Below the pieces are notes generated by a model. It made no database searches. It worked only from the letters and a program-made list of their open reading frames with translations, and was not told where the DNA came from. Of a stretch of 51,865 bases of DNA, positions 25,313 through 30,263 are shown in pieces. Both the position numbers and the translations under genes were made by a program. The DNA is from Sedimenticola sp. (lineage in GTDB: Bacteria > Pseudomonadota > Gammaproteobacteria > Chromatiales > Chromatiaceae), in contig JAMOLT010000004.1 in the NCBI GenBank assembly GCA_027068915.1, positions 1-51,865 of the forward strand, given 5' to 3'. Position 1 is the first letter of the stretch, and every line of letters starts with the position of its first letter.

Positions 25313-27301
25313 TTACACCAGTCCCCGCTGGAAGAAACCAACGGTCACCAGCACCAGCAGGATCAAACCAATGCCCAGCAGGGTGAAGCCCAATACATAG
25401 GAGACGGTTTTGAACTCCTTCGAGGGAGGCGGCACGATGCGTTTCTCCAGTTCGCCGCTGGCCTTCAGCCTTTCGTACTCTTCGGGGCGTTCTTCCCTGA
25501 ACTCTTCCAGATCCCAGCTGCCGGTGAACATTACCGTGTCCAGGGGGAACTTGCTGGGACGGAAGTGGTTGTTGAAGAAATGCACCACGAACAGGGTCAT
25601 TACCGCCAGGAAAGCCTCCAGGCCATGGGCCAGACTGGAGAGATTGAAGGCCCATCCCGGCAGGAAGCGGCTGAAGAAAGGTGAGAACCAGAGAATGATG
25701 CCGGACACACCGATAACGAAGGCGCCCCAGTAGACGGCCCAGTAGTCGAATTTCTCCCAATAGGTCCAGCGGTCGAAGCGGGGGGGCTCTCCCTTGTCGA
25801 AGAACCAGCGGAACTGGCCCTTCATGTCTTCCCAGTCCTTCTTCCGCGGCAACAGGGAATCGGGGCCGAACCAATCGAAATCCTTGTCCCGGGATACTTT
25901 CCACAGCACGGCGATCCCGTGACCGAAGACGGCGATGAGGAATACCACGGCGGCGCTGCGGTGAATCAAGCCAAAGCCCCGGGGACCACCGAACAGGCCG
26001 ATGATGAACTCTGCCCAGCCGGTGTCGGGGAACATCACCACCATGCCGGTGAGCACCAGGGTGAGCACGGACAGGGCCAGTGCCCAGTGGTTGAGCCGCC
26101 ACTGCCAGGAGAAACGCTGGAAGTTCTTGCCGCTGTTGTGCTTGATGCGCTTGGCGCGCACACGGAAGCGCTTGCCGTCCACCACCACCCATTCATAGGG
26201 GCGTGACTTGAGTTCACGCCAGAACCAGAGCATGGAGTGACTGTAGAAGAAGATCAGGGTAAGGATGATGATGCCGATCATTATGCCGCCCAGCCACCAC
26301 AGCTCGGGGTTGCGCTCGAAATCGCCGATATCCGCATGGGCGCGGTAATGGATGAAATCCGGCCCGGCATCCTCATGGCATTTGTGGCAGGTTTTCAGCC
26401 GGTTCTCTTCGGAGATCAGGGAATCGGGGGAGTCCACCTTGTGGGTGTTGTGCGGATCATGGCAATCCTTGCACTGGGCCGCGTCTTTGTCCCCCAGCCA
26501 TGCGAGCTGGCCATGGGTGGTGATTTTGTAACTGCGCACTTCCTTGGCGTGGCAGCTGCCGCATTCCTCGGTGATGACCCGATGGGCGGAAAGTACGCCG
26601 GACTTGGCGATCTGATGGGCGGAATGGCAGTCCGTGCAGGTGGCGCTTTCTCCCTTCCAGGGGGTTTTCAGGCTTGCGCCATGAATGGATTGCCGATATT
26701 CCTCCAGCTCTTTTTCGTGACAGGCGCCGCAGGTTTGCGGTGAATTGAGTTTGTAGACCGTAGAGCGGGGATCCGATGAAGGAAAGACGTAGTGCGCCGT
26801 ATGGCAGTCGGCGCAACTGGCGTTGTTTTTCGCATCCTGTTGTTCGGCATGCACGGAACGGGTGTATTGCTTGGTCTGGATGACGAGATCCAGGCTGTCG
26901 CTGTGCAGCCAGGGAGTGCGTTCCGGCGCTGCCCCTTCCCCCTGCTGGATGTGGCAGCTGATGCAATCCACGGTTTGCAGATCCACCTTGTGGGGAAGCT
27001 GCTCGATATCGGTATGGCAATCCAGACAGCTATAGCTGCCGTGAACGCTGGCGTGCAGGGTGCCCGCATCCACATCCAGGTGGCGGTAGGGTGGTGCGCC
27101 GTTCCTGCCCAGAGGAACGGAAAAGCCCTTCTGCCCATGGCAGGAGAGGCAGTCCGCTTCGGTGATCTCCTCCCGGGCGAGGGGCTTTTCACCTGGCAGC
27201 AATTTTTCCTTTGTTGGAGAAGATGCTGGGGCAGCCGCCATAGCCACGGAAAAGGCCGCCAGCAGCAGGCTGGCGGTGAGATGCAGGTACAGCGTTCTCA
27301 T
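25313..27301 (-). CDS. Nonahaem cytochrome c fused to a b-type membrane cytochrome
   Basis: 662 residues. Signal peptide MRTLYLHLTASLLLAAFSVAMA. The periplasmic half has nine CxxCH haem motifs starting at about residues 51, 92, 113, 163, 191, 222, 247, 277 and 305. A transmembrane helix near 338-360 leads to a cytochrome b561/FdhI-like module (about 400-640) with LNHWALALSVLTLVLTGMV, FGLIHRSAAVVFLIAVFGHGIAVLW and LAHGLEAFLAVMTLFVVHFF, whose histidines can bind two b haems. This architecture should pass electrons between the quinone pool and periplasmic haem proteins. The start overlaps the amt stop by 4 bp (ATGA), placing it in one operon with amt and the octahaem cytochrome, for which it is the likely redox partner. 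Confidence 0.85.
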   Translation of the reverse strand: MRTLYLHLTASLLLAAFSVAMAAAPASSPTKEKLLPGEKPLAREEITEADCLSCHGQKGFSVPLGRNGAPPYRHLDVDAGTLHASVHGSYSCLDCHTDIEQLPHKVDLQTVDCISCHIQQGEGAAPERTPWLHSDSLDLVIQTKQYTRSVHAEQQDAKNNASCADCHTAHYVFPSSDPRSTVYKLNSPQTCGACHEKELEEYRQSIHGASLKTPWKGESATCTDCHSAHQIAKSGVLSAHRVITEECGSCHAKEVRSYKITTHGQLAWLGDKDAAQCKDCHDPHNTHKVDSPDSLISEENRLKTCHKCHEDAGPDFIHYRAHADIGDFERNPELWWLGGIMIGIIILTLIFFYSHSMLWFWRELKSRPYEWVVVDGKRFRVRAKRIKHNSGKNFQRFSWQWRLNHWALALSVLTLVLTGMVVMFPDTGWAEFIIGLFGGPRGFGLIHRSAAVVFLIAVFGHGIAVLWKVSRDKDFDWFGPDSLLPRKKDWEDMKGQFRWFFDKGEPPRFDRWTYWEKFDYWAVYWGAFVIGVSGIILWFSPFFSRFLPGWAFNLSSLAHGLEAFLAVMTLFVVHFFNNHFRPSKFPLDTVMFTGSWDLEEFREERPEEYERLKASGELEKRIVPPPSKEFKTVSYVLGFTLLGIGLILLVLVTVGFFQRGLV

Positions 27302-28643: not shown

Positions 28644-30263
28644 TTACTTCTCGGCTTTGGCGGCTTCCGCCTCGGCCTTCATGCGATCTTTCATGATGTT
28701 GAAGCCATGATTGTCATCGTCTGAGGGACGCCATGCTTTGGGTGGCTTGCCTCCCTTGAACCAGCGATGCATGGGCGAATCAAGGATCTCGTTGAGAAGT
28801 GTTTCCATCTTGTCCGCGCCTTCTGCATTGCCGTTGTTGCGGGCATGTGCGATGGCTTCCTTGATTTCCGGCACCATTTCGATATAGAAACGGTGCGCCA
28901 CTTCAAACACGCCTTCCCAGTGCACGTAGTCAGGAGCGAACATGGCTGCGCCATGGCGGGCGCGGCGTCCTTCATGGTGCCACAGGTAGAAGTAGTTCCA
29001 CTCGATGGACTCGTTGAACTTGGTCTTGTCACGCAGACCGTTTTCCAGCATGGCGACAAACAGCTTCTTGGACGGGATCAGGAACTTGTCGTTGAAGGTG
29101 GTGACGAAGACATCCAATTGCTCGAAATGTGCATCGACGATGTTGTTGCCATGACAGGAGCGGCAGACCGACTTCATGTCCTGGCGGCGTTCCAGCCAGG
29201 GCTTGACCTTCTTGCCCTGCTTGATCGCCTTTTCGTCGATCTTCACCGACACCGGTGCGCGCAGGTTCCAGGAGATACGATCGCCCACGTCATGGGTCAC
29301 CGGCAGATCCTTGGTGCGTGACATATGGCAGGTGGCGCAGGTGGGCGCCGAATCATAGTCCTCGCCCACGATCCATTTGCTGGAGTCCATGTTCATCTTG
29401 TCCTTGTGGGCTTTGTAAGCGATGCCGTGGGCGGATTCTTCATAGACCTCTTTTTGTGGGTGGTCGGGGCCGAGATGGCAGCGGCTGCAAGCCTCTGGCT
29501 CACGCGCCTGGGCGGCGGAGAATTCATGCCGGAAATGACAGGCGCTGCATGCGCCCTTGGAGCCATCCGGATTGATGCGGCCGATGCCGGTATTTGGCCA
29601 GCTCGACTTGTCCAGGGTGCCGTCGGAGTTCACGCGAACAATGGAACCGTGGCAGGCAGCGCACCCCATGACGGTGACCGGTGAGGTGCCGGACAGGGTC
29701 GGTGCGCCTTCCACCACTTCGGCAAGCACATTGTCCAGAGAGCCGAGAATATCACCCGCAGTGGCGTGATGGCTGCGATCGAATTCGTCTACTTCATATT
29801 TATGGCACTGGCCGCAATCCTTGGGGGAAACGATGACCGAGATGACGAAATCCTTGTGCATGATGGCGTCCTTGTCGCTACGATCCGCCTTGTGGCATTC
29901 ATAACAGCCCACGTTGGCGCCGAAGTGCTTGGAGCTGCCCCACTGCCCGTAGATGCCGGGCGTCTTTTCCCGGTGGCAGGACATGCAGGTGGCGCTCTCC
30001 CGGCTCAGCTGGTTGAAGCCTGAGAGGATCTTCACCGGCTCGTTGTTGTTCATGGCAGTTTTTTCCCTGGCGGGCGCCTGTTCCTGTGCTGGCTGGCTGG
30101 CCGATGCGGGAGCTTCTTCCGGCGCTGCCGGTGTCGCTGCCTGCGCCTCCTGTGGTGCGGCAAGTGGCAGTTGTTTGTCTTTCCACCAGCCGCTGGGTTC
30201 CGCAAAGGCAGTGGACAGGAAAAGCAGGGACAGAACGCCCAGAATTGAAACCGACCTCTTCAT
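28644..30263 (-). CDS. Octahaem cytochrome c, hydroxylamine oxidoreductase (HAO)-like
   Basis: 539 residues. Signal peptide MKRSVSILGVLSLLFLSTAFA, an Ala/Pro/Gln-rich linker (about 34-68), then eight CxxCH motifs with cysteines at about 93, 120, 150, 201, 239, 259, 309 and 367. A long haem-free helical C-terminus follows. Spacing, the HHATAGDILGSL segment after haem 3 and the C-terminal RHGAAMFAPDYVHWEGVFEVAHRFYIE match the HAO family (570-residue class), not NrfA or the CxxCK-containing octahaem nitrite reductases. Family members oxidise hydroxylamine or hydrazine, or reduce nitrite/hydroxylamine to ammonium. Whether Tyr446 in the PDYVHW segment corresponds to the catalytic cross-linking tyrosine of nitrifier HAO needs an alignment. 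haoB, c554 and cM552 genes are absent from this neighbourhood, favouring the reductive type. First gene of the operon with amt and the nonahaem-b fusion. Confidence 0.82.
   Translation of the reverse strand: MKRSVSILGVLSLLFLSTAFAEPSGWWKDKQLPLAAPQEAQAATPAAPEEAPASASQPAQEQAPAREKTAMNNNEPVKILSGFNQLSRESATCMSCHREKTPGIYGQWGSSKHFGANVGCYECHKADRSDKDAIMHKDFVISVIVSPKDCGQCHKYEVDEFDRSHHATAGDILGSLDNVLAEVVEGAPTLSGTSPVTVMGCAACHGSIVRVNSDGTLDKSSWPNTGIGRINPDGSKGACSACHFRHEFSAAQAREPEACSRCHLGPDHPQKEVYEESAHGIAYKAHKDKMNMDSSKWIVGEDYDSAPTCATCHMSRTKDLPVTHDVGDRISWNLRAPVSVKIDEKAIKQGKKVKPWLERRQDMKSVCRSCHGNNIVDAHFEQLDVFVTTFNDKFLIPSKKLFVAMLENGLRDKTKFNESIEWNYFYLWHHEGRRARHGAAMFAPDYVHWEGVFEVAHRFYIEMVPEIKEAIAHARNNGNAEGADKMETLLNEILDSPMHRWFKGGKPPKAWRPSDDDNHGFNIMKDRMKAEAEAAKAEK

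Follow-up and report, generated by a model that had tools for sequence, protein, structure and literature searches.

A conserved gene set of deep-sea vent sulfur bacteria for probable reduction of nitrite to ammonium in the periplasm and uptake of the product

Why would a gene for an octahaem cytochrome of the hydroxylamine oxidoreductase (HAO) type be followed by genes for an ammonium transporter and for a nonahaem cytochrome fused to a membrane cytochrome b, and in which direction would such proteins move electrons and nitrogen? The question is raised by a locus of Sedimenticola sp. (Gammaproteobacteria; Chromatiales; Chromatiaceae) on contig JAMOLT010000004.1, whose positions 1 to 51,865 are called the window below, from the 2.83-Mb assembly GCA_027068915.1, the window's own genome. 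Open reading frame (ORF) coordinates bear out the three co-directional genes and the 4-bp overlap described in an initial annotation of this DNA, and the order along the minus strand is hao, amt, fusion:

28644..30263, minus strand: gene for the octahaem HAO-like cytochrome, hao (539 aa, eight CxxCH motifs; ORF, CxxCH count, PF13447)
27298..28560, minus strand: amt, ammonium transporter gene (420 aa, TIGR03644, marine subtype; PF00909, NCBIfam)
25313..27301, minus strand: gene for the nonahaem cytochrome c-cytochrome b fusion (662 aa; CxxCH count, Pfam, CbcL/MtoC/MtrH-type architecture)
27298..27301, minus strand: 4-bp overlap of the amt stop and the fusion start (ORF positions)

As judged from sequence comparison, this gene set, conserved in sulfur bacteria of deep-sea vents, probably serves to reduce nitrite to ammonium in the periplasm and to import the ammonium again, and the operon is apparently switched on at nitrogen scarcity. 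The three-gene linkage is conserved, and the arrangement noticed earlier is beyond chance, since it is also seen in other families of the class. The closest octahaem proteins are encoded at named loci (L numbers) in vent-type gammaproteobacterial metagenome-assembled genomes, several of them labelled Sedimenticola. The search for conserved synteny, proposed earlier as a check, found the order hao-amt-fusion in 13 of the 33 named loci, while another 13 carry hao and the fusion with no amt between them (L082 with amt upstream; L073 with a 1.4-kb gap between the two genes, in which no convincing match to an amt remnant was found). The remaining loci comprise one with hao-fusion-glnK-amt (L090), one with hao-amt reaching the contig end (L062), four in which the contig ends inside hao (L068, L086, L087 and L091, the last sharing its assembly with L067), and a distant deltaproteobacterial locus (L089) showing neither fusion nor amt on a contig that ends about 1 kb past hao. 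In total, the fusion accompanies hao in 27/33 named loci and a linked amt is present in 16/33. Where the order is hao-amt-fusion, a possible ATG for the fusion occurs at the offset from the amt stop seen here in 10 of 14 loci.

An even sample of the class gives a similar picture. A match to the HAO protein (E<=0.001) was detected in 56 of 369 genomes and a close one (at least 64% identity) in 16 of these 56; 14 of the 16 also encode the fusion (E<=1e-60), which is found in 11 other genomes as well, in 10 of them at no more than 50% identity. When the genes of 79 stretches were clustered, hao (63), fusion (44) and amt (23) formed the largest clusters and the next held 11 members; these sizes reflect the use of hao, and sometimes of the fusion or amt, as bait and the presence of some stretches as copies, and what counts is the lack of a fourth gene that recurs with such frequency. 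As candidate partners, the genes that lie upstream of loci without amt were considered and set aside as unrelated, those of L083 (three of four) encoding an exonuclease, a pseudouridine synthase and a von Willebrand A-domain protein.

The direction of the chemistry is judged by homology of the octahaem protein, whose assignment as an eight-haem HAO-like cytochrome is upheld by its eight CxxCH motifs and its match to PF13447 (1.5e-25). Among solved structures, its best sequence match is 4qo5 (7.2e-50), which we take to be IhOCC of Ignicoccus hospitalis, ahead of anammox and nitrifier proteins, and a profile search of solved structures agrees that 4qo5 is nearest. The predicted fold (mean predicted local distance difference test score, pLDDT, 81) also retrieves 4qo5 first (3.7e-20; the fold alignment has about 26% identity) and next 6h5l, titled 'reducing HAO-like', followed by HAO/HDH chains; the canonical HAO structures 1fgj and 4fas are matched too. 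With respect to the TvNiR/OTR group, no match to TIGR04315 was obtained at E<=0.001, and the TvNiR fold reached an E value of 0.25.

The cross-link tyrosine of N. europaea HAO, presumably Tyr467, falls within GGWTYTEGW by counting along 4fas. Tyr446 of the Sedimenticola protein, put forward earlier as the candidate for this residue, had to be abandoned: the alignment pairs it with W465, two residues off the site, and pairs His448 with Tyr467.

28920..28922, minus strand: codon of His448, aligned with the cross-link Tyr467 of N. europaea HAO (alignment)
28926..28928, minus strand: codon of Tyr446, the earlier candidate, which is not at the cross-link position (alignment)

Site counts and the HAO tree cover 67 rows, from which truncated loci, proteins of 450 aa or less, L001 and L002 (the window itself) and eight duplicates were excluded. 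The Tyr467 site is occupied by His in 32 and Gln in 2 rows of the window's 34-row clade, by His (8), Gln (1) or Trp (1) in 10 intermediate rows, and by Trp (15), Gly (1), Ala (1) or a gap (1) in 18 more distant rows; both Desulfo rows discussed below have Trp, L025 has His, and 4qo5 likewise lacks Tyr at this site. Tyrosine is present in only 2 of the 67 rows, the canonical HAOs of Ruegeria and L024. The positions matching Asp267 and His268 of N. europaea HAO, to which we ascribe a functional role in that enzyme, are conserved in 34/34 clade rows. In the midpoint-rooted tree, the window protein lies in the well-supported 34-row clade within a 64-row group that excludes the Ruegeria HAO, L024 and L025.

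In the literature, His at the cross-link site is read as a sign of the reductive state (PMC12758564) and Trp as a sign of reductive enzymes (PMC8940962). Thus, of the features of canonical, oxidative HAO, the eight CxxCH motifs and the family match are present and the cross-link tyrosine is absent; because this tyrosine is missing, the enzyme reads as reductive. The phylogenetic check envisaged earlier accordingly comes out inside the HAO family, and the protein is best assigned to its tyrosine-less, predicted reductive branch, as are IhOCC, epsilon-Hao and HaoCA.

Several HAO relatives in the material have surroundings of their own. At L149:8094-12142 a more distant relative is followed by genes for a tetratricopeptide repeat (TPR) protein, a dihaem cytochrome c and the flavoprotein of a flavocytochrome c sulfide dehydrogenase, some of which have clustered relatives in L150 and L141. 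In L144:8235-11363, genes for NapH (over cut-off) and for a protein of the 4Fe-4S ferredoxin type precede an HAO relative of about 52% identity, and L146 has clustered copies. L140:5411-7481 combines an HAO relative with a NapC/NirT-family tetrahaem gene that follows it with a short overlap, and L152:7816-10912 holds a tandem pair of HAO-like genes in one genome.

In the window, the gene linked to hao is not of the NapC/NrfH type; the partner is the nonahaem-cytochrome b fusion. Its nine CxxCH motifs, all before residue 310, and its match to PF01292 (cytochrome b561, 5.4e-17), besides multihaem families, substantiate the nine haems and b561-type module described earlier. Five hydropathy segments were found in addition to a signal peptide, with a sixth helix at 628-659 in the model, and H405, H447, H461, H559 and H574, suited to b haems, are invariant in 30 rows. 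With the model (mean pLDDT 74), a fold search found nothing at E<=0.001; the top ranks, not significant, were HDH/HAO multihaem chains and the cytochrome b of hydrogenase-1. CbcL of Geobacter possesses nine c haems, six helices and two b haems (PMC9129911, PMC6295460), and CbcL, MtoC and MtrH share an FdnI/HydC-like b part in a family thought to run in both directions (PMC6295460, PMC9129911). Likened to these published descriptions, the fusion, with nine N-terminal c haems, six predicted membrane helices and a b part of this type, has the architecture of a CbcL/MtoC/MtrH quinol oxidoreductase, unlike the NapC/cM552 partner; it differs from CbcL, MtoC and MtrH in its neighbour, which is an octahaem gene of the nitrogen cycle and not an outer-membrane conduit. 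Relatives of the fusion in L156 and L157 (40-43% identity, eight haem sites each) are found at a distance of 1-3 kb from genes that exceed the TIGR03508 (MtrA-like) and TIGR03509 (MtrB) cut-offs and point away from them, and no fusion relative was found on plasmids.

The initial annotation also listed the partners of nitrifier HAO and glnK as absent. This stands for the locus, where no HaoB or c554/cM552 partner adjoins the three genes (the search for haoB and c554 covering the locus only), and for P-II (GlnK), which has no match in the window (tblastn, E<=1). For cM552, it does not extend to the NapC/NirT family genome-wide, since a tetrahaem protein of this family is encoded elsewhere in the genome, within the nap operon.

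The middle gene is indeed an ammonium transporter (PF00909 1e-99; no CxxCH), and its NCBIfam class, TIGR03644, is named 'marine subtype'. Twelve selected pore residues of E. coli AmtB are all identical to AmtB in the window protein (12/12) and likewise in all 24 other rows of the Amt tree, which comprises 25 rows longer than 350 aa with identical copies removed. The linked Amt proteins fall in separate branches, those of L169 and L170 being AmtB-type and those of the window, L164 and L166 of the marine subtype. Placement varies as well: amt lies between hao and the fusion, as glnK-amt before hao (L166), or together with glnK behind the fusion (L164, on the contig of L090), and the order is glnK-amt-narK-hao-fusion in L170 and glnK-amt-narK-hao in L169, where the contig ends after hao. 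The P-II and NarK-family calls rest on NCBIfam, and for NarK the matches in L169 and L170, though strong, do not reach the family cut-off. Since distant relatives place amt elsewhere, amt appears to have joined the hao-fusion module more than once, and the glnK-amt-narK-hao neighbours of L170 and L169 would tie the module to nitrite or nitrate and to nitrogen control. Of the 14 clade genomes examined outside the window's genus (all of the 15 but G270), 7 have amt no more than about 5 kb from hao, against 0.10 expected by uniform placement, a rough figure based on rounded genome sizes; two genomes (G155 and G378) have hao-fusion with no amt nearby.

Regulatory elements upstream of hao provide a further line of evidence, and the sigma54-type promoter before hao is new in this analysis:

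30392..30406, minus strand: sigma54-type -24/-12 element TGGCATGGGGCTTGC, beginning 143 bases upstream of the hao start (pattern search)
30584..30598, minus strand: NtrC-like site GCACCTTTCAGGTGC, GCAC-N7-GTGC without mismatch (consensus PMC8743547)
30601..30615, minus strand: second NtrC-like site GCTCCAGTTTGGTGC, with one mismatch (pattern search)

The strict sigma54 pattern (TGGYAYN5TTGM, sense strand, within 500 bases upstream of hao) is present in 11 of 15 subclade loci versus 3 of 287 control genes (Fisher 1.2e-14, for loci that are not independent), and a score of at least 10 of 11 is reached in 12/15 versus 3/287. The 15 test loci are the window and its subclade relatives, among them L062, L068 and L086, which are cut before all three genes are visible; L065 and L067, with hao at the contig edge, were excluded, and the controls were taken from the same stretches as automatically called ORFs of no less than 200 aa that have 100 or more free bases upstream. 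Within 400 bases, the strict pattern occurs in 12 of 16 subclade loci (L091 included, which the 15-locus set omits because L067 is another piece of its assembly) and, among the other clade members, in 11 of 22, with no antisense occurrence; dinucleotide shuffles of those regions gave means of 0.06 and 0.12 and a maximum of 1. Upstream DNA is alignable in three pairs only (window-L059, L062-L086 and L070-L072), so the element has been kept while its surroundings changed; with these pairs merged, the pattern remains in 8 of 12 groups.

One of the three control matches is the genome's own narK, divergent from nirB, and the intergenic region of these two genes holds a perfect NtrC-like site with sigma54-type elements on both sides (by score); the other two are a gene of L143 and a 333-aa window gene (5775-6773, minus strand) with the pattern 203 bases upstream. 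An NtrC-like site located 30-400 bases upstream of a sigma54 element was found in 8/15 loci versus 2/287 controls, and GCAC-N7-GTGC with at most one mismatch in 19 of 36 regions, compared with a mean of 5.35 and a highest value of 12 in mononucleotide shuffles. Across the 15 upstream regions, the FNR pattern gave no match and the NarL heptamer three. The elements agree with consensus forms reported for E. coli (PMC8743547), and the conserved sigma54-type promoter and NtrC-like sites suggest nitrogen limitation as the signal.

Within a nap operon, the window's genome encodes NapA; it also has NirB, next to a NasA-like enzyme and a NarK (NarK over cut-off), three Amt genes, and a second octahaem protein of the OTR family (L179:6278-8682), whose gene overlaps one for a b561-type cytochrome. 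No match for NrfA, NirS or Hcp was obtained in it at E<=0.001, and none over cut-off for NarG. Among 29 genomes searched, Hcp is matched in one, NarG is over cut-off in 3, and NrfA is over cut-off in 4, always as short stretches within frames of about 750 aa. NirS-family matches, some weak, occur in 25/29, so that the absence of NirS is no rule of the clade, and the OTR family occurs in 18/29, which makes it a common companion.

On balance, the best reading of these observations, held with slightly better than even confidence, is a nitrogen-acquisition form of the reverse hydroxylamine:ubiquinone redox module (reverse-HURM), in which a quinol-fed periplasmic pathway would convert nitrite to ammonium, Amt would recapture the product, and expression would follow nitrogen limitation. 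Under such limitation, RpoN (sigma54), probably with NtrC, would turn the operon on. The membrane part of the fusion would oxidise quinol, and its b haems and nine c haems would pass electrons to the periplasm and on to the octahaem enzyme, which is presumed reductive for want of the cross-link tyrosine. Periplasmic Nap would make nitrite from nitrate, and the octahaem enzyme would convert it for the most part to ammonium, possibly releasing hydroxylamine as an intermediate, before the operon's Amt recaptures periplasmic ammonium that might otherwise be lost. The chemistry and its direction are proposed because of homology, and the regulation because of sequence elements. Support comes from the tyrosine-less site, the matches to 4qo5 and 6h5l, the HaoA-NapC/NirT pairing in relatives, the presence of a nap operon, amt proximity, sigma54 enrichment and the genome's own nirB/narK elements. 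The earlier interpretation was thus right in part: reductive direction, a quinol-type b module and recovery of ammonium by Amt find support in homology and synteny, and its oxidative alternative has lost its main structural prop. It may also be, with chances somewhat short of even, that nitrite assimilation has, in addition to NirA and NirBD, a third route in this operon, by which nitrogen-starved sulfur bacteria would make ammonium in the periplasm, built from a tyrosine-less HAO, a quinol oxidoreductase of the extracellular electron transfer type and a dedicated Amt without an adjoining GlnK gene.

A number of observations weigh against this nitrogen-acquisition reading. Since NirB is already present beside a NasA-like enzyme, a second assimilatory route needs a reason, and the OTR-family octahaem protein could itself reduce nitrite. 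One genome (G209) has the fusion (56%) and no HAO match, and in another (G065) hao-amt and the fusion are on separate contigs, with another gene after amt. On the regulatory side, NtrC-like sites taken alone discriminate weakly (10/15 loci versus 53/287 controls), and the form GCAC-N7-GTGC was adopted after the stricter GCAC-N5-TGGTGC had given no match and shared words had been inspected. Neither a sigma54 nor an NtrC-like element was found within 500 bases of the genome's own glnK-amt, amtB and napA, and the strict sigma54 pattern is missing from L160, L162, L164 (before hao) and L166.

Respiratory nitrite ammonification would involve the same chemistry for the purpose of quinol disposal and energy conservation, with Amt merely limiting loss of the product. 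The quinol-type multihaem feed, Nap in the genome and the reductive HAO clade would suit it, and a Deferribacter nap-hao cluster with amt nearby has been read as ammonification (PMC6896113); however, the sigma54/NtrC-like promoter and the glnK and narK neighbours in relatives indicate nitrogen supply, and hao here lies outside any nap cluster, which leaves this explanation rather unlikely. In the classical form of reverse-HURM, the enzyme would make hydroxylamine, Amt would import it, and a cytoplasmic hydroxylamine reductase would complete the reduction. The Nautilia proposal that AmtB-related transporters carry hydroxylamine (PMC3701875), together with an Amt that is linked here and intact at the inspected residues, speaks for it, but Hcp occurs in only one of the 29 genomes and not in this one; even though NirB could substitute, such a route seems improbable.

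Chances are slimmer still that the operon detoxifies hydroxylamine, nitric oxide (NO) or nitrite with a broad substrate range, like the orange cytochrome of Guaymas Beggiatoaceae. That native protein acts as nitrite reductase, hydroxylamine oxidase and hydrazine oxidase, with detoxification discussed (PMC6449678), and the Desulfosarcina relative adjoins NO reductase and norR; the recurrent Amt would nevertheless go unexplained, and no NO-reductase gene was seen among the neighbours scanned. Hydroxylamine oxidation feeding quinone, the nitrifier-like direction, could draw on the HAO fold, on the retained residues aligned with Asp267 and His268, and on the presumed bidirectionality of the CbcL/MtoC family (PMC6295460). 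It is nonetheless very improbable indeed, weakened because the Tyr467 position holds His448.

Comparison with known systems places the operon near several published ones, the closest in the available texts being reverse-HURM of Nautilia profundicola (PMC3701875), the Deferribacter nap-hao cluster with amt (PMC6896113) and the orange cytochrome downstream of nap (PMC6449678). Reverse-HURM as published already assigns transport to Amt; it went unmentioned in the initial annotation and comprises HaoA, cM552/NapC, Hcp and Amt. The window's genome shares with it, as far as described, a tyrosine-less octahaem HAO, a predicted quinol feed, Nap supplying nitrite and Amt in the scheme; unlike Nautilia, it has a CbcL/MtoC-type fusion, no Hcp match, Amt in the operon and a sigma54-type promoter. 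BOGUAY_0691, the orange octahaem protein of Guaymas Beggiatoaceae, compared by description, similarly belongs to a vent sulfur oxidiser and is nitrite-reducing there, but has napA and napB upstream, and a fusion or Amt is not mentioned in the available portion of the text (PMC6449678).

Plasmid pairs of Desulfosarcina ovata and Desulfobaculum bizertense resemble the locus in encoding a HaoA homologue (40% identical over 69-73% of the query) and in having an adjoining quinol dehydrogenase gene, and differ in their NapC/NirT partner, Trp at the key site and the lack of Amt in the stretches shown; 'haoCA' is presumably the name of such NapC/NirT-HaoA pairs. In titles and abstract openings among the matches listed, a literature search largely outside subscription journals found neither a hao-amt linkage with a CbcL-type partner nor NtrC/sigma54 control of an octahaem HAO.

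The locus is flanked by a SulP permease gene upstream and by pyrC downstream on the opposite strand. Elsewhere in the window, 19643-23829 forms a small heat-shock cluster with Hsp20-family genes (19643-20137, 22985-23410 and 23431-23829; Pfam) and a CbpA/DnaJ-type gene (21629-22582; Pfam), plus, by eye, a DegP-like protease and a small CbpM-like gene, the latter with no NCBIfam match. A 428-aa protein encoded at 35981-37267 (plus strand) shows a weak Pfam match to LCIB-type carbonic anhydrase (5e-05, below cut-off).

These results touch on two open questions, the role of tyrosine-less HAOs in non-nitrifiers and the source of their electrons. The operon offers a predicted quinol donor from a family other than NapC, together with a testable regulatory signal, and the repeated linkage ties a tyrosine-less HAO enzyme to ammonium uptake. 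If the nitrogen-acquisition reading is true, some hao genes of vent and sediment metagenomes that have been taken as signs of dissimilatory reduction or nitrification may instead mean nitrogen acquisition.

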